Below, in pieces: positions 42,630 through 58,985 of a DNA stretch of 64,000 bases. The DNA is from Microthyrium microscopicum. Taxonomy: Eukaryota > Ascomycota > Dothideomycetes > Microthyriales > Microthyriaceae. How positions within the stretch are numbered: position 1 is the stretch's first letter; each line of letters starts with the position of its first letter. Location of the stretch: contig MU004241.1 of assembly GCA_010405405.1 (NCBI GenBank), positions 248,001 through 312,000 of the forward strand. The letters run 5' to 3'. Both the position numbers and the translations under genes were made by a program. The notes below the pieces were generated by a model. That model ran no database searches, had not been told where the DNA came from, and saw only the letters and a list, made by a program, of their open reading frames with translations.

Positions 42630-44572
42630 CTACAAAATGCCTTGTGCCACTAGCACATACGCTGCTACACTCCAAGCAGGCCACCAAACCAACCACACAA
42701 TCACTTGAGTCCACAGTCCATATACCTGCCATCCAAACGCGGCCTCCGCTAATACCGCGCCCAAGCCGCCTGGCACCAGTGTCGCGCCGGCCCATATCAA
42801 GCTGCAGGGGTTCACGGCCAACAACACCAAACCTAGCACTACACTCCGCACGCGCGCCGCTTTACCTCCTGCTCCCGCATGGCGTGAAGATACTTGTGAT
42901 GCGCTTCGAAGACTGAGGTGCGTTGGTAGTCGCACTAGTAGAATAGGAACGCAAAGCAGTCCAATGCCATACGCCAGGCTGTAGTTGACGGTTGCTAGAG
43001 CAGCTAATGTCATGCCAAGCTGTAGATGGGTGAAGCAAGCCAGCAGACTGAGTTCTTGCTCGGTCGGGCGTGTGAGGCGAGCGAGTATGGCGGGGAGAGG
43101 TAGCGAGAGAAGGGCAAAGAGAGTGAATGTTGTGGCTGAGGGGAGGGTGTTGAGGAGGGTTAGTGGGAGGAGGCCAAGAAAGTGGTGCGCGGTGAGGAGA
43201 AGAAGGGGTAGGAAGAGATGGCGTTCCACGGGTGTTTGGGATGCAGTAGTGGAGGGTGATGATGGCTGGGGTATAATGACTGCTGTTGATGGGGGTTTTT
43301 CGGAGGAAGATGGTTTTTCGGATGGCGTGGTGGTGGATGTCGTATTGCGGAAGCCGGTTTGAAACCACAGGGCGATGGCCATGATGTTGAAAGCGGCAGC
43401 GATACACATAGCGCTTGGGAGGTAGGTGCCGATGCTGACGAAGCTGTTGGATTGCATCAGGAGATAGAAGAAGAAACTTTGATGGAGGTGTTCGAGAAGA
43501 TTGTTGAGACTTCGGAAGATGCCTTCGACTGTGCGACCAAGGCTCATTTCATCGTGCCAGCCGTCTCCTACGGTCTGAAGGGTTATGGCATCGACATGGT
43601 ATCGCATGAAGCCGCTGTGAGGACCAGTAGAATGGCCGAGTGCTTGGTTGACCATGCCGCGAGTCAACGTTGTCAACCGTTCCTTGTAGGAATCAGAGTG
43701 GTGAAGCATCCTCTGGAGTGTGCATCCGATGCCCATTTGCCCAGAGGCGACACTGACTGCGGTGTTGAACAAGTCCAAATTTGGAAGCATTCCATTGATA
43801 CCGTCATATATGATTTGGAGCTTGTCAAATCGATGACCCCATGGTCCAGCTGGGTAGTCTATGGCAATAGCACCCTGCAAAGCACCACTTTTGATGGTCA
43901 ATGGCTGCACAAAGTTAGGGTCGTGAGCATCGTGATATGCGTCCACCCATGCTTGTGGTCCAGCTACACTGTCTTCCGATATTATGAAAATTATATCTTT
44001 TGACCACAAAGACCATCTCTTGAAATAGCGTGCCAAAGTCAGCACCAGCGCTACTCCACTTTGATTTTCAATATTATCCATATTCTTCCAAGCTCCGATC
44101 AGCACAATAGCCTCCGTTGCATCCGCTCTTGGCCCGTGTAGAACGGCATACACATTCTCCCCCGTTGCGTTGGTCGCAGAAGTCGCATAGTTGTACTTTT
44201 GAGTAGCAACCTTCAATCCTGACGATCGTAGTATTTCGCTCAATCTTTGATATCGTTCCGGTCCAGGTTTGCCCACAAGACCATGAACCTCGTGTCTGTA
44301 GGCGCGAAATATATTGTGCTCGCTTCCATCGAAGTATGTATGGACCTGGCCGGGAAGGAGCGCGTTTTCGGAGATATAGGTTTGTCTCGAGTATTCTTTG
44401 AGGGGTAAGAGAAGAAGCAGCAGCACGCCAGCGACTATGCAAAGCACTGCGGCAGGCGTCGCGACCTGGAGGAGCCGTCGGCGGTCTCGTTGCAGAGCAC
44501 GTAATGCTGTCGCTACAGGGAGTTTAGCACTAGCTTTTTGGGGACTGAAAAGAACTAACCAAGAGTAGACAT
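42630..44572 (-). CDS. GAA1: GPI transamidase subunit Gaa1
   Basis: ER membrane subunit of the complex that attaches GPI anchors to proteins. Exon 1 is only 13 nt (44572-44560, encoding MSTL plus one base), followed by a 47-nt intron (GTTAGT donor, TGTAG acceptor) and one long exon 44512-42630, 631 aa. The first membrane helix is at about residues 22-44 (VLCIVAGVLLLLLLPL). The luminal M28-peptidase-like domain follows: YVHxE-type region replaced by FRAYRHEVHGL, then EAIVLIGAWKNMDNIENQSG and MLPNLDLFNTAVSV, then DAITLQTVGDGWHDEMSLGR. The C-terminal 270 residues are hydrophobic and hold several membrane helices. A disordered Ser/Thr/Pro loop lies at about 415-450. Confidence 0.93.
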
Positions 44573-45882
44573 ATTGAAGCTATATATCCATAGCTATTGT
44601 TGCTTTTGAATCTATGTTCTCCATGTGGATGGCACTGATAGACTGATGCGACGTGGTTCAATGCTTCGAAGTTCGAGCAGAGCCTCATTGGGGGCTGTGA
44701 TTAGAGGGGCTGCCATCTCTCTCTTTCAACCGCTTTGCCCCTTTACTCCTGAGGTTTGGATTCACGACTTCTGATTTCCAACTTCAAGAGGATATCAGAA
44801 AACAACATTTCACTAGGTCTTTAATCCCTCGGCCTATCTTATTTCGTAATTCATACTAGCATTGTTCTCAGCTCAGACTCGCTTGTCCATCATCATCCTC
44901 TGAGCCGCGTTCATCTTACACACTGCATTGCTTCTGCTATGGACGGTGTACCTCTGAGATCACGTATGCAATTCCATGGCGGCGTAAAAAGTCCTGTCAA
45001 GATGAGACTCTATACAACTGAATTTCTAGCTTGTCAAAGTGTCTTGGATTAGCTTATTCAGCAAATGCCATTCCAACGAAGACTCGCACCACAAGGCCAA
45101 CAATCAGCTTCAGATTGATTAAATACGCTTGGTCTCTATCTCAGTCCAGCAAAAGGGTCCAAATCTCAGAAAGGAGCCATTAGTAAGTTCACATATGAGG
45201 GTACAAGTCCATATTTTCCATTGACAGGAGCCTCAAGGTCCCCCATATTACATACGCCACGCCACATACCAGCACACATCCGGGATCTAAAGTTCATGCC
45301 TTATAGCTCTGAAAAAAGTGCTTCATGACTGAAACCTATCAATACCCCAGCGTACTATAACATTCTATGAGGTCTAGAAAAATGACTTTGAAGTCCGCGA
45401 CTCACATTCCGAACGCCACTTCGTCAAGAATAAAACGGCCGTATATCATCCAAGGATTTGCAATTATCAACTCCAGATTAGAGTGCTTTCGAGATTCACC
45501 TAGTCCTTTCACACTCCACAGTTGACGCAAAGAAAGATCCCGGGTCAATCGAAAGCTTGGGCACACCAACTAGCCCTCAGATCCATCGCATGTCTAATCT
45601 CACGTTCGTAACTGATCAAGAGCTCTTGTACAACGGCTGCCTTAATCTATTGTGCCTTCTAGAATTAAGACCAGCTTTCTTAAGCTTATAGACAATAATG
45701 GGCAGTACTGGGATGCGTTCAATTGGTCATATGCAGATTCCTGGACCAAAGTCTTTGCCCTTGAGATCATATTAATGTCCATTGTGCCCACCTTGACTTT
45801 TTGATAGCTAAAGTTAGAGGGGCGTGTCTTGTTCAAGAATCCAACATCGTCTTTCCAACTCTCCTTTCAAAGTCAAATCACC
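44573..45882. other. intergenic, 1.3 kb between divergent genes
   Basis: Holds the promoters of GAA1 (minus) and of the secreted PHM-like gene (plus). No gene is supported, and no clear TATA box or copper-response word was found on the PHM-like side. Confidence 0.4.
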
Positions 45883-47172
45883 ATGAAGTCTGCCTGGTTT
45901 TCTGCTGCATTGGCAGCCAGCCTTGTGGCGGCAGGCCCAACTGCTCCTGGTGCTGTCGAAGCTGTGCACAAAATGACAAAGCGCCAGACTGCGGTTAGTG
46001 GTCTAGTGAACTCTGTCGTTAACTGTACGTATAACCTGGCAATTGATTCAATCTTCGAGGCGCTGATGATCACACAGCTGGTGGAAAGGTCAAGGCCCCA
46101 GAAGGCGCAGCACCAACAAGAGTAGAAATGGAACCCAGAACCAAGCAAGTTCCAGGCGCCAAGACTGTCAAGCTACGATACGGTCCATACAAAGTACCCA
46201 GTATGAAAGTCGTAAACGTCTTTGGCGAAGGTGGAGCATTGTGGAACTTTGCCGACAATGCTGCCCCCAAGCCTTGTGAAGATGACTGCGCTATTATGGG
46301 TATCAATGCTGGTCTGGAGTACCCAAATGGCACCAACGCCAACATTGATACTGGTCTCTGGCTTCATCACGTAAGTATCTATTGAACCGCTGCTCAGATT
46401 CAGTGCTTATTTGGTTTAGATGGTGTTGTTCAATATTGGAAAAGGACGCAAAGACGCTACTTGTGGCGACGCACTAGTTTCTCTCCCACATATGATTGTC
46501 GGCTCCTCAGCTACTGGTTCAGAGCGTCTGTTTTCTTCTGGTAACGAGCGGACTCAAGCTATTCTACCAAACTGGAACGAGAACAAGGTTGGCTACATGC
46601 TCAAGCCGACCGACAAATTCGCCCTCATTGTCGATCTTATGAACGACAACATGGTCGACGCCGTTGTCTATCTCACTATCACTTACGACTACGTTCAAGG
46701 CCACCCAGCTGGCTGGGATGACATGAAGCCAATCTGGTTCGACGTTGCCCAGTGCCTCACCAGCGAGTGGCCCGCACCATACGCCCAAGGCAAATACAGC
46801 ATCCCCGCGCCGATTTGGACCGCCAACATTGACGGTGATATTGTCGGTGCCGCTGGCCATCTTCACGACGGTGGACAGGCTGTTGTTTTGGAAGTCGATG
46901 GCAAGGTCGCTTGCAGAAGTGACGCAAGCTACGGAACAAGTCCCGAGTTTATTGGAAAGCCAATGCATGGTGGACCAGCTGAGCATATCAGCAAGATGAG
47001 TCTTTGCATTGGTGATAGTTTGCCTCATAAGAAGATGGTCAAGGGACAGAAGTGGAAGCTCCGGGCTGAGTATGATTACTCAAAGAACAAGGGTGATTCG
47101 CACGCAGAAGGCAAGCCCGCCAATGTCATGGGAATTGCCATCATGTATGTTCGTGTCCCATTCAAGGGTTAG
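45883..47172 (+). CDS. secreted PHM-like putative copper monooxygenase
   Basis: Three exons (45883-46024, 46078-46370, 46420-47172), 395 aa, introns 53 and 49 nt. It starts with a signal peptide (MKSAWFSAALAASLVAAG) and a probable Kex2-type site KR at about 32-33. Three motifs resemble peptidylglycine alpha-hydroxylating and dopamine beta-monooxygenases: LHHMVLF at 143-149 (paired His, split by an intron after H145), GHLHDGG at 291-297 (HxH), and NVMGIAIMYV at about 380-389 where M382 sits like the methionine ligand. In PHM these are copper ligands H107/H108, H242/H244 and M314. The third His of the first site could be H169, but spacing differs. A link to the plant SURNod19 family is also possible. 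Substrate is unknown. Confidence 0.7.
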
Positions 47173-48268
47173 AAGATTTATAGAAATCTTTCATTGAAGT
47201 TTCACTATCCTTTTCATCACCGCAAGCTTTTTCCGCGACTAGTACACCATTACTCTCAAAAATAAGTCTGAACGCTCACGACTTTGCGCTGTTACACCAT
47301 CAGCTCGTAGCAAGATTACTTGATAGTTGTGACCGAGTACTCTCGTCCAATATCATCTTGATCATATCTCAGTAGTCAAAAACGGGTTATTGATTCAGCG
47401 GTCACTCTGGAAAATCAGATAGTCATACTCAGTAATTTGAGAATCATGGCCAATGTGCGTGTTCCCGAGGGATTGCCATAAGCATGTGAAGTTACAAAAT
47501 CCATGCAGAGAATCATTGCGAGTGTAATCGAAAGAGGCGTGCCGGTACTGTGTGTGGTTGTTAAGCGCGTACTCTATAGGAATCAACCGAAAAACGCAAT
47601 ACATACAAGTGTCTGCAGGAAGTTCTTTTCGTAAACAACCATAATTGATTGTAGAACCAGCACATAATTCGTCGACATAGTGGTCGCACACGATCAATGA
47701 CAAGTAATCAACACGTCCAGGCGTATACAATTGATCGAGACTCTATAGCAGTCTCAGAAGAACAAGCCTAGAATTGGTTCAAGAATGCTGGCCGCCATGC
47801 CAATTTAATATAGGTCAACCAGGTTCAGCAGCGCGTTACGGTTCCCGTTTAGATCGAACGGGTCGTTGGTTGATCATTCACCGGGAGCTCTTCCAGGTAC
47901 CCTAATTACCCTCAATGGCATATTTCACCCTTGTATATCATTAGTGGAGGCATATACAATTATATATTACTTACGAAAACGACGCTTTAACAAGACCTGT
48001 TCGACCGGAGGGTTCTATTGTATAAGCTTAAGGATAATGTATCCATGTAGGTGAATGGAGTCTCAGGTTCAAATTAACCAACGAGCCTGTCATCTGAGCG
48101 TGAATTAGGGGGTCTAATGTCTATGCTTGTCGTATACTGGACTCGAGATGCTTCTTAGGTGGACAATATTATATACAGACTGGCACTCTGCATTTCCTTC
48201 CTTGAGCTGTCGCATTCTCACCCCGCCCAAGAAACTCCACGGCCATTCCCTCATTTCAATTCACAATC
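47173..48268. other. intergenic, 1.1 kb
   Basis: Holds the 3' UTR of the PHM-like gene and the promoter of the HsbA gene. No gene is supported. Confidence 0.4.
48170..48175 (+). promoter_or_regulatory. TATA-box candidate of HsbA gene
   Basis: TATATA inside ATATTATATACAG, 94 bp before the HsbA start codon. Position and sequence fit a core promoter of a strongly induced gene. Confidence 0.5.
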
Positions 48269-49069
48269 ATGAAGTTTTCAGTAATCATCGGCCTTCTCGG
48301 CTCGGTGGCATTAACCAATGCTGCCGCACTGGCGCCTATGGATATGACCACCATGCAGGTGGTCTTTGATCACATTTTCACGGGCCTAGACAAGCTGACC
48401 GAGGACACCCGCTCATACACTGGCGGTGCAGATGGAGTTAAGAAAATCGTATCAGACGCCAACGCCGTCCAAGCAACAGTCATGGACGGTATCAACAAAG
48501 TCAAGGCCAGCAAAGGAATGTACATCGTAGACATTGCGACAATCCTGGGACCAGTCGGCGTAATGGAAAGCCAAGTTCATGAGGCCGTGGATATCATCAA
48601 GTCGAAAAAGAAGGAACTCCAGGCCGCCAATGCCGACAAGGATATTTTGGGACTTCTTACGCAACTGCGAAGCAGTGCTGGTGGATTGGTTGATGTGATT
48701 CTTGCTGGTCTGCCATTGTCTTCAATCGTTGGCCTCGTTGCTCGACCTATCGCAAACACTATCCTCACACGCATCGACGAGGGCATCAAGGAATGGGGAG
48801 GTACTCCAGGTGCTGCTGCCAACCCACCAGTTGGTTCTGCACCAAAGGCGACTGCTGCTGCTGCACCAAAGGCAGCGGCCACACCAAAAGCATCAGGCAC
48901 CGCAGCAGCCCCCAAGGGCATCCTTGGAGGACTATTTGGCGGAAAAGGATCGGCTGCAAAGGCATCTCCGACACCACCAGCAGCGGCCGCACCACCAGCA
49001 GTGTCACCAGCAGCGGCACCAGCACCAGCAGGAATGGCAGGAATGGCAGGCCATGATCATGGGATGTAA
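48269..49069 (+). CDS. HsbA-domain cell-wall/secreted protein with Met/His tail
   Basis: Intronless, 266 aa. Signal peptide at residues 1-19 (MKFSVIIGLLGSVALTNAA). Residues about 25-180 form the helical hydrophobic-surface-binding protein A domain (LDKLTEDTRSYTGGADGVKK, DIATILGPVGVMESQVHEAV). HsbA proteins coat hydrophobic surfaces and help recruit hydrolases such as cutinase; relatives include cell-wall galactomannoproteins. The C-terminal 80 residues are Ala/Pro/Lys repeats (APKA, TPKA, PPAA), and the last residues GMAGMAGHDHGM are rich in Met and His, like copper-binding Mets motifs. The tail ends immediately at the stop with no GPI signal. Confidence 0.88.
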   Translation: MKFSVIIGLLGSVALTNAAALAPMDMTTMQVVFDHIFTGLDKLTEDTRSYTGGADGVKKIVSDANAVQATVMDGINKVKASKGMYIVDIATILGPVGVMESQVHEAVDIIKSKKKELQAANADKDILGLLTQLRSSAGGLVDVILAGLPLSSIVGLVARPIANTILTRIDEGIKEWGGTPGAAANPPVGSAPKATAAAAPKAAATPKASGTAAAPKGILGGLFGGKGSAAKASPTPPAAAAPPAVSPAAAPAPAGMAGMAGHDHGM

Positions 49070-49660
49070 ACTGTTCGGCAGCAAGCGCAAGAGCTGGAAT
49101 ATGGCTGAATAGTGGACACTGATACCCGCATGATCTATGTTACTGTAACTTAGCATATAGACTAGCACATTTACCACACTTCTGAACACCTCACCCTTCC
49201 AATATCAGTTTCAATTGTGATTTCTCTGGCATTGTCGTTCTTTAGCGAGGCAACGCAATTTTGCTGTGTTTTGTGTTTCTGGCTGAAGAATTAGGCTGGA
49301 AAGTGGAACACATAAATATCAAGTTTTCGTATGCTAAAGGTCTAGAAAAGGTCAGGTAGTGATAATTTGGCAATGGACCTGATGTTCTTACGATGAGTAG
49401 GGAGTTGGAGGATGGCATACAAGACCAAACAGAGACGCGACGATGGCTCAGGGGCAATGTAGAAGGATTGAGTATGCCTTCCTTAGCTCCATTCTATCGC
49501 CCCTATCATGACCCAGCTGCCAGCCACGCTAAACTTGACTTGTTATAACAGGGCGAAACCAAAACGCGACTTCACACCTTGGAGGAGAAGCATTGGTTCT
49601 CATTATTAGTGTTACCAGAGTCTATGCTAAGAGACCGCTGGAAGCTTGTGCTCAATTGCC
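49070..49660. other. intergenic, 0.6 kb
   Basis: Contains the HsbA 3' UTR and the promoter of the downstream hydrolase gene. No gene, repeat or RNA was recognised. Confidence 0.4.
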
Positions 49661-50903
49661 ATGCATAGCCTTCCAGAGCCTACGCTAAGCTTCACCATCC
49701 CTTCTTTACACGACGGCAAGTTTCTGGCATGTCGCATTTATCTTCCAAAGCGCGTCGCGCAGATACAAAGCACCAAGGTTGTTTGTAAATCGTCGCTCTG
49801 AGATTGCGGGCTAATGAACGTCGATCAGAAAGGAGCTATACTGGCGCATCCATATGCACCGCTAGGGGGATCCTTTGACGACCCTGTGGTATCCATTGTA
49901 GGATCGGAGATTCTAAATCATGATCGAATTCTCATGACATTCAATTTTCGGTACTATTAGAGAGCCGTTGCCTTACCTATGTATTGACTGTTCTAACAGA
50001 GGAGCAGGCGATTCTGAGGGTCGCACCAGCTGGACTGCTAAACCAGAGTGCTCGGATTATGCTTCCGTGGCCGGGTTCTTTATTCAATATCTGAGTCGTC
50101 TAGACTTTGAGCCAAAGATCAGCAAGAAACCGTCATTCAATGGTTCATTTGGGCCAGTTGATGTTATAATGGCTGGCTATTCTTATGGATCGATGATCGC
50201 GACTCGATGCCCAGCATTACCATCAATCTTGGCTCCATTCGGATCTTACCTTCCTGGCACATTCCCGGCTGAAGTATCTCTCAGAGCAGCTCATTTAGCC
50301 TCTGAGACTAACGAGGAATATCGCCAGGCCAGGAGCACAACTATACCCAACTCGAGGCAGTCGATAGACCATACCTTGTTGGTCGGTGGGGATGAAGGTA
50401 GCCCTCGCAAGAGTAAAGAGCATCGCAGAAGTATTGACATGCGCAAAAGTCTCGATGTGATGTCTAGACAGATGCACTTACACAAACATAGCCTTCGGAG
50501 TAAGCACAAAGACAAGCCCAAGTCGACGGCGATACCCGAGGTCAGCCAGGACTTTGATTTCCAAATCAAGTTGTCTTATTTACTGATATCGCCGCTTCTT
50601 CCGCCAATATCGACATTTACTGCTCTGTCGTTTCCATTTCACAATGACCATGATATTCACACAAAGAAGCTAACCACCAGCCCCACACTGGCAATCTTTG
50701 GTAGCAAAGACGTTTTCACTGCTTCAAAAAAGCTCAAACTGTGGGGAGAAGGACTTCAAAATGTAAACAGAACGTTTGAGTGGACTGAAGTTGATGGTGC
50801 TGGCCATTTTTGGCGAGAGAGCGGCACGGAAGAGGTGCTTATTGACCGAATTGGCAAATGGATCGCTAGTCTGGACATGACCAAATCAACCGCTTTATTT
50901 TGA
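49661..50903 (+). CDS. alpha/beta-hydrolase-fold protein
   Basis: Three exons (49661-49777, 49829-49950, 50000-50903), 380 aa. Splicing gives GAILAHPYAPLGGSFDDPVV and FNFRGAGDSEGRTSWTAKPE, the oxyanion and strand-4 region of a fungal family of cytosolic alpha/beta hydrolases. The nucleophile elbow is GYSYGS, an acid follows in FGSKDVFT, and the histidine is in DGAGHFW. A basic Ser/Lys/His-rich insert (about residues 180-260) sits between the lid and the last strands and is probably disordered. There is no signal peptide. Intron 1 has a weak donor (GTTGTT) but a good branch site (GGCTAATG) and acceptor. The substrate is unknown; peroxisomal or lipid esterase roles are guesses. Confidence 0.8.
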
Positions 50904-51391
50904 GAGATCAATTGGATTCAAAACATCACAGCCTTAAATTTTTTGGAACCCAGCAATGTCCCCATTGATTGAGACCAAAATGTTCAATTGGGAGTGTGCA
51001 TGTTCAAAGTGCCATCAAACATCTGGAAAGCACTCGGCAGGCATTCGGCACAAGTACAAAGGACACTGCTACTTCTTATCAAACGGAAGGTGCCAGTTCT
51101 TTGTTTGATTTCACAATACAACTTCAAGATTTCGTCTTATTTACAACGAATTACTCGTCCCCCAATTGCGCCATAATTCGCCATCGCCAGCCCTATGGTG
51201 TACCTGCATCTCAACAATGGATGGAGACACCAATATTCATCCACACCCTCATTATGGTCACTTGTATCCCTAACTACTCTTGAATTCCACAATCGCGAGA
51301 TACGCAATCATCCTTCGATTGCTACTATCGCCTACTGTTCAGGAATTCATTCTGGCCAGCCACTTCTCTCAACATCTACTTTCACCTAAAC
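50904..51391. other. intergenic, 0.5 kb
   Basis: No gene is supported. The last 100 bases are rich in CT and CAAC tracts, as expected for a 5' leader of the gene at 51392. Confidence 0.4.
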
Positions 51392-52197
51392 ATGGCACCA
51401 GAACTTCTCATCGACGCTCGCTACAAAACCGTAACGGAAACCATTTCAGCGAGTATTCAAAGCAAACCACCCTTGACTCTGGTTGAAGACCCTTCATTCG
51501 TACCAACCGACTTCCCAATCCTCCAGTTCCAACGAGGCGCATCTGAGCAAGTCAACACATTGCTAACGGAGCACGGCGTACCTTTTCGTCCATCACCTCT
51601 TCTCATCACTTCGCCATACAACCTACCAAACCATCACCTTGATTTAAATCGCCTGGATGATGTTCAAGACCGCGTGCTCACGCTAGCGCTGACATATCTT
51701 GCACCTATCCGAGATGACTACGCCACGGCCGCCTACGAAGAATCATTGAATTGGGACCACATTCGACTGCGCATCAAGCAACTGTCACGTGTCGCCGAAC
51801 AAGCATGGACAAGTCGCGTGTACTACGTTGTCATCTTTCGCTCAAAGCTAAAAGCTGACCACGACCGTCAACTCCTCTGGGATTTGGATCGCGAAAGCCA
51901 TCGTGAGGCTGTCCAGAGCGGTGGATTGCTGAAGTACTGGTTCGGCCAACACGACGACGAGGTTAGAAATCTTGCTACTTGTAAGTCTGGTCATGCATTG
52001 CACTCCTGGAGAGAAGCTAACATTTGGCAGGTGTTTGGCGGAATCGCGAAGATGCGAGAGCTGGTGGCACTGGTCCGTGGCACCAAAAGGCTCGCGCTGC
52101 AGGTCGGAAGCTTTACGATCGGATTGAGTTTTCAATCTGGCGGATGACTATTACCGATGATGCTGATTCCATCTCGTTTGGACCTTGGAGTGATTGA
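51392..52197 (+). CDS. conserved-looking hypothetical protein, two exons
   Basis: Function not recognised. Exons 51392-51980 and 52031-52197 are joined over a 50-nt intron (GTAAGT donor, AGCTAAC branch, GGCAG acceptor) and give 251 aa. The splice changes the frame and yields an orderly C-terminus (VWRNREDARAGGTGPWHQKA, then YDRIEFSIWRMTITDDADSI), which supports the model. The protein is soluble, with no signal peptide, no membrane helix and few cysteines. The middle contains LTLALTYLAPIRDDYATAAY and a helical stretch rich in charged residues. The order of features suggests a single compact domain plus C-terminal arm. It lies downstream of an alpha/beta hydrolase gene in the same direction. 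Confidence 0.7.
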
Positions 52198-52647
52198 ACG
52201 TGGCCAACCCTTGTGCTAATTCAGTGTCGTATCTGGACCATGATTGGCTCCTCATTTCTTCATAGGCAATTCCCATCGGCGACGACTCAGTGCGCAACAT
52301 ACATGGCGAACCAGCGGTAATGGTGTTCAAAGCCTATTTGTAGACTTACTTCCTACTTCCGCATTACAGCATAGCGAGCAGTCTTAACTTCATTAGAACC
52401 TACTAAAAGTCTAGAACCATTCATAGAGAATAGAAATTAAGTTATGCATTAACTATGTCTGTTCCTCTCCACAAGTCATATCCAAAGCATATAATCTGAC
52501 TACAAGAGTGACAAGACTGATGCATTCTCATCACTATCTAAGATCAATCACTCATTCTTTCAGTATATAAAGCTAGACCCTGCCCACCAGATCGCCCATA
52601 TTTCTTCGTTCCCACCAAAAATTGTTATCAACCAAGTAGCCAGACTC
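52198..52647. other. intergenic with TATA-type promoter at right end
   Basis: No gene is supported. The right end holds the TATA candidate for the small gene at 52648. Confidence 0.4.
52564..52572 (+). promoter_or_regulatory. TATA-box candidate (TATATAAAG)
   Basis: A near-consensus TATA element 76-84 bp before the ATG at 52648, followed by a CT-rich and CAA-rich leader. It supports transcription of the small open frame downstream. Confidence 0.6.
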
Positions 52648-52965
52648 ATGTGTATCGCAATCGGCTTCAGAAACGGAATTGGACCCCATAACGGGCGCAC
52701 ATTCATCCGCATAGCGGCTTTCTGCGACTCTCATAGGACTACTGGTCAGGCGTGCCAGCTGCGGTACTGCGATTTCTATGATACAGAGCTTGTTTATGAA
52801 GGCGAGGCCAGACCAGAGCAGGTGTCAACGAACGGCGCCCAGGGGGTACCAGAAAGCTCACAAGCAACAGAAGGCACTTCTTCATCCTCAGACTCAAGCT
52901 CGGATCCAGATATAATGACGAACGGCAATACAAACGGCTTTGTTCGTCTTCAGCATCGGGATTAA
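52648..52965 (+). CDS. small hypothetical protein, 105 aa
   Basis: Single-exon frame of 105 codons, not recognised. It has a good TATA box and a fungal-type leader, which argues that it is expressed. The N-terminal half (MCIAIGFRNGIGPHNGRTFI, then FCDSHRTTGQACQLRYCDFY) contains five or so Cys/His residues; the C-terminal half is Ser/Thr/Glu-rich and looks disordered (STNGAQGVPESSQATEGTSS). There is no classical signal peptide. It might be a lineage-specific protein in a region rich in secreted genes. Confidence 0.5.
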   Translation: MCIAIGFRNGIGPHNGRTFIRIAAFCDSHRTTGQACQLRYCDFYDTELVYEGEARPEQVSTNGAQGVPESSQATEGTSSSSDSSSDPDIMTNGNTNGFVRLQHRD

Positions 52966-53519
52966 GCATTGCGTAGTCTGTCTAGCAAATCATGACATTA
53001 TCGCCACCATATGACTCGCGTGAAGCCCTGCTAGAGGGAAGCATAACATACCTTGCGGCACAGCTGGATATAGGATTTCTGTAAGATGTCTAGCTAGCTT
53101 TATTAAAGAAGTACAATTGTGGAGAGCTTATGATTTGGATACTATTAATAAAACGAAATTGCGTCAACACAATGAGGCTCAAGTTAGATCGAACAGGCCA
53201 ATGAGCCCTTCGGTAGCTAAGTTGGAAAGAGGATCAATATATAGTTTTCAGAGTCTTTGTTCTCTACCTGGCCCTTGGGTTGATCAATTGTCAAATCGGA
53301 TCTATTCCCCACAGTGAATTATATTTCGGATAATCCGGTGCTCTGGGTTCAGAAAGGATGTTATGTCATATCATCAATGTCTATAGCATACATGAGAAAT
53401 ATTTTCGAAATCCGTAACTTCATTTTGCTGTGATTTTCTCACATATCAGCCTACCTTTGAACTCGTCGCCAGTGATATCGTTCTTTTTGCTTCATATTGA
53501 AGATATTCAGACAGCACAG
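52966..53519. other. intergenic, quercetinase upstream region
   Basis: About 550 bp, AT-rich, with no gene supported. No clear TATA box or copper-response element was found. Confidence 0.4.
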
Positions 53520-54992
53520 ATGAAGTCCAAAACTCTCAGTGGAGCTCTGCTCTCTGCGTTAAGCGTCACGGTAGCCAGTCAAGCCAACGATGCTTCTGGT
53601 GGACTTGTTGTGGATGTGGCCCCTCAGACTTTGAGGCCATATGTTATTCGGAATCTTCATGGCGCAACTGTGGCAGTGGGAGATCAGATATATCGCTTCC
53701 CAGTTACGGGCAATTCATCCGCTGGAGCTTTCACATTAATGCAGACGTAAGTAAATTTCCCACATGATCAATTCCAAGGTTCCTTCATAAGTATTCAAGC
53801 TTTATACTCTACTCGCAAGGTATCAATTGAGTGCTCAATGCAGATAATATTCTGCCAACCTTCTGTCTTATATATTGGTTTTGTTCTAACAGCTCTATAG
53901 AAATGCACCAGAGTCCGATCAATTAGGAGTGTTACCTCACTTACACAAGACGCATTATGAGAACTTCTACTGTTCCAAAGGTAGAGTTCAGGTCTGGGCT
54001 CAGAAGAACGAGACTGGTGAACAAGCTCGAGTTCTCACTCAGGGCGATTATGGTGGCGTGTAAGGCTTCCCAATTCGCAGCTTTGCATCCAGACATTCCT
54101 TCTCCCGACCCTTGACCTATGTCATTTAGATATTGCTGAAAGCATCAACACCATGATACTCTTGAAGTCGCATGCCACTTTCCAGTACTAACATCTTTGA
54201 GGCCTCAAAACACAATCCACACATTCCAAATGACCGACCCCGATACTCAACTCACTGGAGTCATCTCGCCTGGCGGGTTTGAAAAGCTGTTCTTTACTAT
54301 CGGCGACCCATCCTTCAAGACATCCACTGGAACTCCCTTTGTACCAGGGCCTGCTCCTCCAGGAATGGGTACGATATCACTTTATGATTTTGAGTTGTCG
54401 AAGCTAACAGTTACTAGACCCAGGCGCAAATCCTGGATTGATCGGAGCTCTCCAGCAACTAGATGTTTATGCGCAATTCCAGTACAATCCACGTCGTGAC
54501 TTTGTCAATGGCTCAGCCGGCAGTGGTGTCTGGCATAACGGCAAGAACACGCTTGCTCTCAACGAGAAGACCCCCAACTTCATTGCTAAGAACTACGGCC
54601 CCAAGTATCTGAATACTGAGAACGGCTATAAAGTTATTGCTCCGCTCGCAACTGGTAAACAAACCGGAAACAACTTCACCATGGGCACTATCACGATGAG
54701 CCCCAAATTGGCAAATCTTACCGAGAATCAGATCACACCATCTCAACATTTGGCTTTCCAAATCGAAGAAGGTCAATTGGTCGTTAATGTGAAGGGCCAG
54801 GTAGCCACTTTGATATTTGGTGATGTTGTTTTCGTCCCGAGCGGAACTCCTTTCTCGTACTTCGCGTCGGTGCCGTTCACCAAGTTCTTGTACGTCAGCG
54901 CTGGAGGAAATGGCTTGGATGCTCAGCTTCTACAAAAGAGTGCTCCTTGGAACTATACGACTTATCCCACATACGCGGGATATAAAGTGTGA
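53520..54992 (+). CDS. secreted quercetin 2,3-dioxygenase (bicupin)
   Basis: Opens the flavonol quercetin with oxygen, releasing CO, in a mononuclear copper site. Four exons (53520-53746, 53901-54059, 54202-54368, 54418-54992), 375 aa, introns 154, 142 and 49 nt. A signal peptide occupies about residues 1-20. The N-terminal cupin has VLPHLHKTHYENFYC with H89, H91 and E96, and H135 in NTIHTFQ. The intervals (H-x-H-x4-E, then 39 residues to the last His) equal those of the Aspergillus enzyme ligands H66, H68, E73 and H112. The second cupin starts near residue 190 (LDVYAQFQYNPRRDFVNG) and, as in the known enzymes, has no metal site. N-glycosylation sites (NSS, NGS, NFT) are present. It is convergent with a copper-transporter gene 115 bp away. 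Confidence 0.93.
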
Positions 54993-55107
54993 GGAGCTTG
55001 ATAGTTATTAATAAATCTCAAACTTGTACTCTCTCAGTGTATGAGTCTTCATTCCATTCATATTATCTTTCGAACCATCCATGATGAGTGCATTGAATCC
55101 TTTACTT

Positions 55108-55839
55108 TCAACCACAGCAGTAAGTGATCTCGCGGTCTTCTGCATTTTGTCCACCACTCAAAGGATACCAACTGAAAATGAAGGAGCCGATGAAAGCGCC
55201 AATGAATATGCAGATAATGATGTAACCGTTGTAGTACATGGCCAAAAGCATGATGATATAAGCCACTGCGAATTGGAGCATATGAAGTAGAGCTCGTATG
55301 GCTTGTTGCACGATGGTTGGTGTGGTTGATACAGCTGTTGGGCGGGTAGAAGCAGAGACAAACTTGCCGTCATCGCTGCCTTGAGTGACGGTTGGCATGT
55401 TGGCTGCGTGTTTTGTGGCAGAGCGAACAATGTAGCTGTCATACTCCTTTGACGCTCTTCGAAGTGCTTCAAGAACGATAACCAGCAGGATAGTTCCGAT
55501 GCAAGAGCCTGCGAACATGCCCTTGGACGTAATGTGCCAGCTTGACGATAGGAAACCTTGGAAGCGTCAGTATATTCGAGCTCTATTGCATAAATTGAGC
55601 TTTCGGATATGGACTTACAGGCATCAATGGTGTACCAATTCCACAACATCTAGTACAGCGTAAGGGGATATTCAGACTGGTCGCAGTCAGTTTCAACTTA
55701 CGGATATCTTGCACGCTGATGCGCCTCCCATACCTCCCATACCCTCCATACTCATTGCTGTTGAAGTTGTGGCAGCTGCAGCTGAAGCTGTCCCGGTTGT
55801 GCTCATGGCCATTGTCATGGTACTCGAGCCCATGTCCAT
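55108..55839 (-). CDS. Ctr-type high-affinity copper transporter
   Basis: Imports Cu(I) across plasma or vacuolar membranes as a trimer. Three exons: 55839-55702, 55649-55619 (31 nt) and 55556-55108, 205 aa, introns 52 and 62 nt. The N-terminus is Met-rich (MDMGSSTMTMAMSTT and MSMEGMGGMGG), followed by ACKISMLWNWYTIDACFLSS, the conserved juxtamembrane segment. TM1 is about GMFAGSCIGTILLVIVLEAL, TM2 includes HMLQFAVAYIIMLLAMYYNG, in which the ML-AM spacing can supply the MxxxM copper gate, and TM3 ends IFIGAFIGSFIFSWY with a GxxxG packing motif. The cytosolic loop of about 55 residues is Thr/Ser-rich and a terminal CC pair (ITYCCG) lies near the end. It resembles fungal Ctr2/Ctr3-like proteins. 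Confidence 0.93.
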
Positions 55840-57016
55840 TCTAAGAAGATAAGGGTTAAAGGAAAATTAATGTTGTTGGTATATTGAAGAGTTGATGGTG
55901 GTAAATGGTACTGGCGGGTCGACGTAAGCTAAATTGCGTTGTGGTGCCGCATAGGTGACCGTTTGCTCTTATTTATGCTTCTTCAATGCTTCCTCAAGCT
56001 GCGTGCAACCTGCATGGCTCCTTCTCGCTTGAGCAGGTTACTTCCCACATGAACATGATAATTGGCAGGCTCCTTCCTCATCCTCCAGATGTCGCTTCGT
56101 CTTGGCCAAAATGGAAGTCAGGTCACTCGTTTTCAGGTGCCCATAATTCCTCTAGAAATGCAAGAACAGCGAGCATGGCAGACATTTCACGAAATGTTGA
56201 GCTAGTTTGAGAATATTTCTTATGCAGAGGATGCAGGACTAGTGTAAAATCCAAGCATTGAGGAGCTTCCTGTCAGCACAGTTGGAACCAATCTCAACAG
56301 CCTCCTGCCTGGTTGGTTCCTGTCGAACAAGGATTAGGAGACGTCCTGAGCCTTTCAAGCACTCGGGATTTGCTATGAGCTAATTATTTATCTTGGCACC
56401 TCCCGATCATAGGGGCAAAACTCATTATGGTGTCTTCAATACCACTTCACGCGGTTATTTTCTTACTCGCGATCTTCGAAGCGGATGAAATCAGGATAAC
56501 CGACGGGTCAAAGCCAATTATTCGGTCGGTCAATCGGTTGACAGTCCAAAAATAAGAGCATCCTTCGCAGTGGCAAGGCAAACCAATGTACTCGGTGATT
56601 CGACTTGCGTAATCAGAGAGCAGTTATGTGATGAGCGCAACTCAATATTACATAACTGGAACAAACATGTTTGACGGTAATGGGATTAGATTGTTGCCAG
56701 AGGACGTCCTACTTCGAAACGGGCGTTATAATGTAATATTCCAGGCTTTTCATATTGTATTGCGAAAATCACGCTGAAATGAGTCGGAGCTTTTCAGAGA
56801 CATGACTGCTAAACCGTTTGCTGATTTGATCCTAGGGCGTCTTTCGTGAACCGATCTGGTTGTTTCATTTCTCGTGTCGTTGGAGAAGGCGCCGCAATGT
56901 GCTCATGTCTCTGTGCTTGTCTTGCGCCTGTCATAATGTAAAGACAATATGAGTGTATCGCTAGGAGAAGAGCCTTTCAACTGCCAATTTGAATATTCGG
57001 CCATCCATCTGACAGC
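55840..57016. other. intergenic, Ctr promoter region
   Basis: About 1.2 kb between the Ctr start codon and the CSL4 stop codon, both on the minus strand. It contains the Ctr promoter. No gene is supported. Confidence 0.4.
55962..55968 (+). promoter_or_regulatory. copper-response-like word upstream of Ctr gene
   Basis: TTTGCTC lies about 123 bp before the Ctr start codon, next to a TATA-like CATAAATAAG (minus strand, 55977-55968). Yeast Mac1 recognises TTTGC(T/G)CA and the Aspergillus counterpart TGTGCTCA. A second TGCTCA core is on the minus strand at 56035-56030. Orientation and number fit a copper-starvation promoter, but such short words occur by chance. Confidence 0.3.
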
Positions 57017-57682
57017 TCATATTGGTTTGGCAACTTTTCTCGCCTCTCGCAATCCTGTCTTTTCATCCAGAACCTCGCGCCAACTAACAGGCACGCATCC
57101 ATTGCCCGCTTCACTCCAAGCAATAACTACTCCATACTCGTTGCCAGCAGTGCTCAAATAATACCCACCTTGATCACCTAGGCTTATCACCACCGCGCGG
57201 ACCACATCACCAACACGGAAACAGTCTCCCAGCTTGACTTTGTCTTTTTCAGTGGCGCGCACATCTTGTGAGCGAATAATACCGCGGAACGAAGTCGCGA
57301 GCGCGCGTGGCTCAAGGGAACCTTCCGTTGGTGTTGACGAGACGTCAGAGTCTAAGCGTGGCAGAGCAGCTGCGCTGGGTGGTACTAAGGCATGAATCGA
57401 GCAGGTGGCCTGCTGGCGCTGGAGCGAGGTGACCTTAGCGTAGACTTGAGCGCCAACAGAAGGAAGAACAGGAGCGGTTTGACGAGATGCTGGACGAAGT
57501 ACAGACACAGATGTACTGCCTTTAGAACGCGTGGTGCTATTGAGAGATGATTTTGCAGTTGAGGCGCGACCTAGTACAGAAGCGGTGATTTGATTGTTCT
57601 GAATATGTGTACCTGGGCCGGGTGTTGCTTTGCCAGCCGGTACCAGTAATGCGCCAGGAAGGAGTATGTCAAGGTTCGACAT
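57017..57682 (-). CDS. CSL4: exosome cap subunit Csl4
   Basis: S1-domain cap protein of the RNA exosome, which degrades and processes RNA in nucleus and cytoplasm. Intronless, 221 aa from the ATG at 57682. The N-terminal strand domain reads ILLPGALLVPAGKATPGPGT, followed by a Ser-rich linker. The S1 domain runs from VGAQVYAKVTSLQRQQATC to VRAVVISLGDQGGYYLSTAG. The end GNGCVPVSWREVLDEKTGLR is characteristic of Csl4, with the zinc-site cysteines reduced as in other fungi. No break is seen. Confidence 0.92.
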   Translation of the reverse strand: MSNLDILLPGALLVPAGKATPGPGTHIQNNQITASVLGRASTAKSSLNSTTRSKGSTSVSVLRPASRQTAPVLPSVGAQVYAKVTSLQRQQATCSIHALVPPSAAALPRLDSDVSSTPTEGSLEPRALATSFRGIIRSQDVRATEKDKVKLGDCFRVGDVVRAVVISLGDQGGYYLSTAGNEYGVVIAWSEAGNGCVPVSWREVLDEKTGLREARKVAKPI

Positions 57683-58226
57683 ATTCGCTAATATCTAGAT
57701 TTGAAAATTCGTTTGCACATGATGTGTAGTGCAATAATGTTGGAAGTTTAGTTGATGCCAAGGCGCTAACGGCTGCACACATGGCATCTGGCGTTTCAGC
57801 CTCGCTTTCAGCCTTGCTTTCAGCCTTATGATGCCAACTTCTTGCAATTGTAGCCCACAATAGCCATCACCAGAATGAGAAACAAATAGCCAATATTAGA
57901 GCAGATTTTAGTAGTGTTCTGCCCAGACCACTATTAGTAATCAGAATCTATCTCTAGTGACATGCAAGACATTGGATGATGTATATAATCAAGCCCTACT
58001 GAAGCCCTTGAAGAACCACTTAATTTGAACTTAGTTTCTCACTTCTTACTCTAAAGCATAAGGCGCCATTGTCATATCAGAAATGGGAATATAGATATAA
58101 TATATTATGCTCCGTGGAAAATCGATGAAAAGTTCCATGCTTCAACCAAGCACTCCATCATTGAACGTAAAAAGAAATTCCAACATTATGTACATTCAGT
58201 GTGTGTGGTATAATATTGTCCTATTT
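57683..58226. other. intergenic, CSL4 upstream region
   Basis: Contains the CSL4 promoter and the 3' UTR of the cutinase gene. Apart from A/T-rich stretches nothing is recognised. Confidence 0.4.
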
Positions 58227-58985
58227 CTATGCAGCAGCCTCGGCAGCGGGAGCGGTGGACTTGGGCATTTTAGGCATTTTAGGCATTTTGGGGGCAGCAG
58301 CGGGAGCAGCGCCTTCCTCACCACCAGCACCAACACCTCCCTTGACAAGGTTCGCCAACCAGGTTGCAGCCTCATTGATGGAGGCGCTGCTGTAAGACAA
58401 ATGACCACCGTTGACGTTGAGCCCACCACCGCATACACCGTCCGAGGGGTTGCACCAGACCTTGGACTTGCCAGTTGGGAAGCCGGGAATGTGTCCAGAA
58501 TCCTGCTTGTTACGGGTATCACCGAAGAGAGCGACACCAACAAGCTTGCTCTTGATAGCAGCGTCGAGCTTAGGGACTACGTTGTGCATAACGGCGGCTC
58601 CCTGAGAGTATCCTCCGGCAATGATGATTCCACAGCCGGCAGCTTGCTTGAAAGCATCGTGGCCCTTTTGGATGGAGGCGGCATCTGTCCGTTGAATAGA
58701 TATGTTTGTCATGATAGAAGCGGCATATGCGACAGGAATAGTCTTCATGCCGGGAATTTTGCTTAGAAGAGCACGTTGTAGAGCTGGTCCAATGATGATA
58801 CCCTTTTATCTTGTTAGAACCGCGAATGAAACCAAGAACTTCCCACTTACGATTGGTGATGGTTCAGTGGAACCACGTGCGAACACGAAACATGTTCCTC
58901 CGCCAGCTTGCCGAGACTCCAGACTAGATGGGGCGGCAGCGGCCACGGAGGCCAGCGCAGTGGTGGCAGCGATAGAGAGCTTCAT
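58227..58985 (-). CDS. secreted cutinase (carbohydrate esterase family 5)
   Basis: Serine esterase that hydrolyses the plant polymer cutin or related esters. Two exons (58985-58851 and 58802-58227) with a 48-nt intron, 236 aa. Signal peptide about 1-18, then a short propeptide with an R-Q site. Catalytic triad: S111 in GGYSQGA, D166 in NPSDGVC and H179 in GGHLSY; the oxyanion region is TCFVFARGSTE. Disulfide-type cysteines are C32, C102, C162 and C169. After the catalytic domain there is an added tail of about 40 residues with Gly/Ala/Pro and three KMP repeats. The start is the ATG at 58985; the longer upstream frame was rejected. Confidence 0.93.

Follow-up and report, generated by a model that had tools for sequence, protein, structure and literature searches.

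The window analysed here is a stretch of 64,000 nucleotides from the genome of Microthyrium microscopicum (C12:248001-312000; 36.9 Mb on 20 contigs). Splice models place seven genes between the housekeeping genes Gaa1 (42630-44579, minus strand) and CSL4/EXOSC1 (57017-57694, minus strand): a Nod19/PHM-like protein, an HsbA protein, an alpha/beta hydrolase, two hypothetical proteins, a quercetinase and a Ctr copper transporter, which is encoded on the strand opposite to the other six. An earlier note on this DNA had described these genes and their order, and splice models, Pfam and PDB matches agree with it for the most part. Its proposal that they form a copper-centred group is another matter. 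These are probably ordinary secretome and membrane genes which act independently of each other and which mostly keep chance company between two housekeeping genes. As there are many copper-linked families, dispersed over the genome, and as no common copper control can be seen, the copper theme would for the most part be a product of selection after the fact.

The promoters were searched for TGCTCA, the core of the Mac1 consensus DHNTGCTCANNN given for Fusarium oxysporum in PMC11563359. In the window this core has a background frequency of 0.86 per kb. It is absent from the 1000 bp upstream of the PHM-like gene, the 1000 bp upstream of the HsbA gene and the 554 bp upstream of the quercetinase gene, and also from the 1000 bp beyond the open frame of a nearby cutinase, whose first exon is not in that frame. 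At the background frequency, absence from any single upstream stretch is unremarkable. One TGCTCA lies upstream of the hydrolase gene and one upstream of Ctr (56030..56035, minus strand), the latter together with a near site, TTTGCTCT, at 55962 on the plus strand. A Ctr paralogue on another contig (L005, C13:466221-469766) carries five TGCTCA from -495 to -134 relative to its ATG and is perhaps a copper-starvation-driven transporter. A further Ctr gene (C2:660485-663762) is located about 2.8 kb from a gene of the ferric reductase family (PF08030), like the Ctr-Fre pairs of Fusarium. Thus the canonical copper promoter and the canonical pairing seem to be found elsewhere in this genome. For 40 Nod19 paralogues, upstream stretches estimated at 600 bp each contained eight TGCTCA in 23.5 kb, i.e. 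0.34 per kb compared with 0.83 per kb in the rest of these loci; hence the family does not look Mac1-driven. These promoter data, which cover the Mac1 core, speak against co-regulation of the Mac1 type.

How far the grouping exceeds chance was assessed by placement of loci merged by hand from exon matches, weak and sub-cut-off matches included (80 matches to 55 loci for Nod19, 20 to 19 for HsbA, 11 to 7 for Ctr, 51 to 39 for cutinase, 26 to 21 for multicopper oxidase and 14 to 12 for PF08030). Three quercetinase loci were used, with the weak match at C7:2347589 (E 3.2e-4) left out, and contigs 15, 18, 19 and 20 were given equal assumed lengths. Several of the results weigh against chance company. 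Random placement predicts 0.013 quercetinase-Ctr pairs within 10 kb (p 0.0125) and 0.007 within 5 kb (p 0.0075), and with permuted labels the adjacency has p values of 0.0275 and 0.0115, respectively. All four families (Nod19, HsbA, quercetinase, Ctr) came together within 10 kb in none of 20,000 random placements, 49 of which reached three; when seven families were counted, five fell within 13 kb in none of 20,000, and 17 reached four. The HsbA protein, moreover, ends in a tail, AGMAGMAGHDHGM, that is unusual among its paralogues.

For the other pairings the numbers expected within 10 kb were 0.03 (HsbA-quercetinase), 0.07-0.08 (HsbA-Ctr), 0.08 (PHM-like/quercetinase), 0.2 (PHM-like/Ctr) and 0.5-0.6 (PHM-like/HsbA); each was seen once, all at this one place. 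These low odds carry less weight than their size suggests, because the families were picked after they had been seen here. With 12,000 genes assumed, of which 2, 5 or 10% would pass as thematic, the probability that four of them occur in some 10 kb is 0.013, 0.28 or 1.0, respectively. Neither the other two quercetinase loci nor the other six Ctr loci of this genome show such a grouping again. Recurrence of the Nod19-HsbA, Nod19-cutinase and HsbA-cutinase pairings was near chance, except for Nod19-cutinase at 15 kb under the uniform null. Multicopper oxidase loci, considered separately, are close neighbours more often than expected (three pairs no more than 15 kb apart; p 0.0015 uniform, 0.0285 with permuted labels); pairs at C4 2158-2180 kb and C1 3724-3734 kb are among them, and some of these loci may be fragments of a single gene or tandem duplicates.

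A functional theme other than copper would be the early colonisation of plant surfaces. The Nod19, HsbA, cutinase and quercetinase proteins would then be secreted together at first contact with the cuticle, HsbA and the cutinase for cutin, the quercetinase for flavonols and the Nod19 protein to deal with oxidants. PMC9632046 describes an early infection peak for members of the Nod19, HsbA and cutinase families of Venturia inaequalis, with co-expression of HsbA and cutinase, and a cutinase is encoded near the present group at 58227-58805. However, early expression of families tells nothing about these particular members, some Venturia HsbA genes peak later, and the housekeeping gene CSL4 separates the cutinase from Ctr. 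Nod19-cutinase pairs within 15 kb were seen five times where uniform placement predicts 1.76 (p 0.035), but with permuted labels the expectation is 4.8 (p 0.53), and at 10 kb only two pairs were seen (p 0.32, uniform). A CCTCGG, which we take to be a FarA-type site, is present about 800 bp upstream of HsbA; as this was the only one of eight upstream stretches examined to contain it, the motif was not accepted as a sign of a cutin programme. The types of genes fit surface colonisation no less well than copper, but this theme, too, has little statistical support here, and we consider it unlikely as the explanation of the group.

The copper-centred explanation is that Ctr, the quercetinase, the Nod19/PHM-like protein and HsbA share their regulation, which would match the supply of copper to an extracellular oxidative programme, while the HsbA tail would keep copper close to the surface. 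It draws on the intact ligands of the quercetinase, the convergent Ctr gene only 115 bp away, the unusual Met/His tail and the improbability of the pairings by random placement, and it has a parallel in bean, where Nod19 is a target of miR398 and follows copper status: its level falls when copper is deficient and, leaves excepted, rises when copper is in excess (PMC3882225). Yet Ctr fills the cytosol, not the extracellular space. In published copper regulons the companions of Ctr are Fre and, once, BIM1-like proteins (PMC11563359; PMC12113139); the text consulted of the former includes ctr-fre pairs in the copper-limitation clusters of F.oxysporum and gives no quercetinase, and that of the latter contains no mention of quercetin or HsbA. 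With the Mac1-type core missing upstream of three of the four genes, no recurrence of the group in this genome and no quercetinase in the F.oxysporum regulon as far as seen, the single extracellular oxidative programme with matched copper supply put forward in the earlier note is not upheld, and we regard a copper-centred cluster as quite improbable. A functional link between the quercetinase and Ctr alone is possible. In the literature searched, no described gene set resembling this neighbourhood turned up, and the one paper that mentioned quercetinase together with 'copper transport' concerned gut microbes. The neighbourhood as such would gain importance only through comparative or expression data that reveal a link between the genes.

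The quercetinase (flavonol 2,3-dioxygenase; 375 aa) is encoded at 53520..54992 on the plus strand in four exons (53520-53746, 53901-54059, 54202-54368, 54418-54992) and is predicted to be secreted. Its best PDB match is the quercetin 2,3-dioxygenase of Aspergillus japonicus (1gqg, E 2.7e-100, residues 27-368); Pfam assigns Cupin_2 (3.3e-11), and two-cupin homology extends along the full length. H89, H91, E96 and H135 align with positions 66, 68, 73 and 112 of the A.japonicus enzyme, which we take to be its copper ligands (three His and one Glu). All four are thus intact, as had been claimed, which argues for a copper-dependent enzyme. Fungal quercetinases use O2 and a mononuclear copper centre for ring opening of plant flavonols, and the enzyme encoded here would be exported and cleave flavonols in this way. 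Extracellular quercetinases are given for Penicillium olsonii and Sclerotinia sclerotiorum in PMC8120277.

The Ctr gene (205 aa; 55108..55839, minus strand; exons 55839-55702, 55649-55619 and 55556-55108) is convergent with the quercetinase gene, and the stop-to-stop spacing of 115 bp was confirmed. The protein matches PF04145 over the whole profile (E 8.2e-45) and has a Met-rich N-terminus, an MxxxM motif (MLLAM) at 159 and a GxxxG motif (GAFIG) at 176. Ctr proteins bring Cu(I) into the cell; family identity supports the same role for this one, which would supply the cell with Cu(I).

HsbA binds hydrophobic surfaces, and the HsbA-domain secreted protein of the window (266 aa; 48269..49069, plus strand) would attach to such surfaces as well. 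Its domain is well above the cut-off (PF12296, E 1.9e-14; 54.6 bits compared with 33.5), and the C-terminal Met/His tail is present as described before. Of the HsbA frames read, 11 in total with the window copy, none but this one has a stretch with at least five Met/His in 13 residues (0/10 others); 12 of the roughly 19 HsbA loci in the genome had been fetched, one was unreadable and some frames are partial. A weaker stretch, DHAGMPGMAG, occurs in one paralogue (L032). The tail looks like copper-binding Met motifs, but a tail of this length does not prove that copper is bound.

The gene that had been annotated as a secreted PHM-like copper monooxygenase (395 aa; 45883..47172, plus strand; exons 45883-46024, 46078-46370, 46420-47172) seems to be one of about 55 Nod19-related secreted proteins of this fungus. 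Judged by eye, the protein has a signal peptide and a Lys33-Arg34 site. Its only Pfam match is SURNod19 (PF07712, 2.7e-5), which at 23.6 bits stays under the curated cut-off of 25 and covers the HxHDGG region. Of 25 family members scanned, 20 match PF07712 with E values of 0.1 or lower (the best being 2.1e-8); genome-wide, nine of 12 SURNod19 matches are above the cut-off, the window copy not being among the 12. The search of the own genome found 80 exon matches with E values not above 0.01, the best paralogue match being 51% identical. Searches for prokaryotic relatives gave 17 and 99 pattern matches, none of which was confirmed, and none on plasmids. The Nod19 family of V.inaequalis is described as an effector-candidate family with a function called unknown (PMC9632046), and a Nod19-type gene is up in soil fungi under some treatments (PMC11580470).

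The residues of interest in the window copy are the pair HH at 144/145, N220, HLHDGG at 292-297 and M382. Conservation was read from an alignment of 41 members (the window copy and 40 of the 54 other loci; 14 weak loci were left out). The two histidines of HH are kept in 37/38 and 35/38 aligned members and those of HxH in 37/39 and 37/38, followed by Asp in 36/38; Met382 is kept in 12 of the 15 members that reach this position. The position of N220 is Asn in 33/38 members and His in one (L072). Met/His-rich stretches resembling the Met motifs of Ctr and the HsbA tail were also observed in two paralogues, L057 (995-1927; MAGMDHSGMSGGGMSGGGMAGG) and L054 (MKGMPGMDKPMAMMH).

The copper ligands of PHM are, we assume, H107, H108 and H172 (Cu-H) and H242, H244 and M314 (Cu-M). 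The order HH ... N ... HxH ... M of the Nod19 protein, with a similar spacing, is like that of these ligands; the difference is that the position of the third Cu-H histidine, matched to N220 by motif only and put in register by no tool, is mostly Asn. Neither Cu2_monooxygen nor Cu2_monoox_C was found at E up to 0.1 in the window copy or the family members scanned. A genome-wide search for Cu2_monoox_C with an E limit of 1 found nothing, and no control genome matched either. Single-sequence and profile searches of the PDB returned nothing significant and did not reach PHM. Profile comparison with PHM gave a 13-residue match at HH (P 0.055), and the hhalign probability was at most 3.2%. Forced alignment gave P values of 0.014 (local) and 0.057 (global) with the 41-row profile, and 0.066 and 0.99 with a 25-row profile; H292/H294 were placed on H242/H244 and M382 one residue off M314, with structure end-points that allow 314 or 315. 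Of four fold comparisons, all of them weak, three had PHM structures in a prominent place, and in the fourth, with a domain-2 model, PHM was absent among the best 50 Foldseek matches.

Similarity between Nod19 and PHM at the sequence level is therefore not convincing. The earlier annotation as a PHM-like copper monooxygenase is a reading of motifs. A copper role is plausible. We infer that the protein probably folds as a beta-sandwich like that of PHM and possibly has a Cu-M-like site. Going further, plant and fungal Nod19 proteins could be an unrecognised and massively expanded family of secreted copper proteins with the PHM fold, in which the third histidine of the electron-donating Cu-H site has become Asn and the oxygen-activating HxH-Met site is kept. 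They would act as one-sided or altered monooxygenases at the host surface, where the neighbouring Met/His-tailed HsbA could hold copper. This proposal is tentative, and we are inclined to doubt it. If it were true, the Venturia non-enzymatic effector candidates of unknown function and the copper-responsive bean transcript would turn into a testable family of copper enzymes at the plant-fungus interface. In any case the Nod19 family, which is very large and little studied and may bind copper, is a lead worth following.

The alpha/beta-hydrolase-like protein (346 aa; 49814..50903, plus strand; exons 49814-49950 and 50000-50903) matches Abhydrolase_6 below the cut-off (7.3e-5), and no copper link was seen for it. 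A hypothetical protein of 251 aa (51392..52197, plus strand; exons 51392-51980 and 52031-52197) has only a sub-cut-off match to DUF7617 (E 0.0023), and a short hypothetical ORF of 105 aa (52648..52965, plus strand) has no Pfam match. The cutinase, which lies outside the group (58227..58805, minus strand; PF01083, 1.8e-26), was read as one open frame without a modelled first exon; it is about 2.4 kb from the Ctr gene and has the tail KMPKMPKMPKS.

The known systems closest to these genes are the SURNod19 family, the fungal quercetinases, PHM and the Mac1 copper-limitation clusters of F.oxysporum. Most of the Nod19 members scanned match the SURNod19 profile, whose cut-off the window copy narrowly misses. 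The quercetinase keeps all four copper-ligand positions of the A.japonicus enzyme (1gqg/1juh), with no active-site difference seen, and is likewise probably secreted. Ctr genes are present here as in the Mac1 clusters of F.oxysporum (ctr3/fre9 and ctr1b/fre12). There, however, Ctr is paired with a divergent metalloreductase gene and Mac1 sites lie in between, whereas here its partner is a convergent quercetinase gene, and a lone TGCTCA accompanies Ctr.

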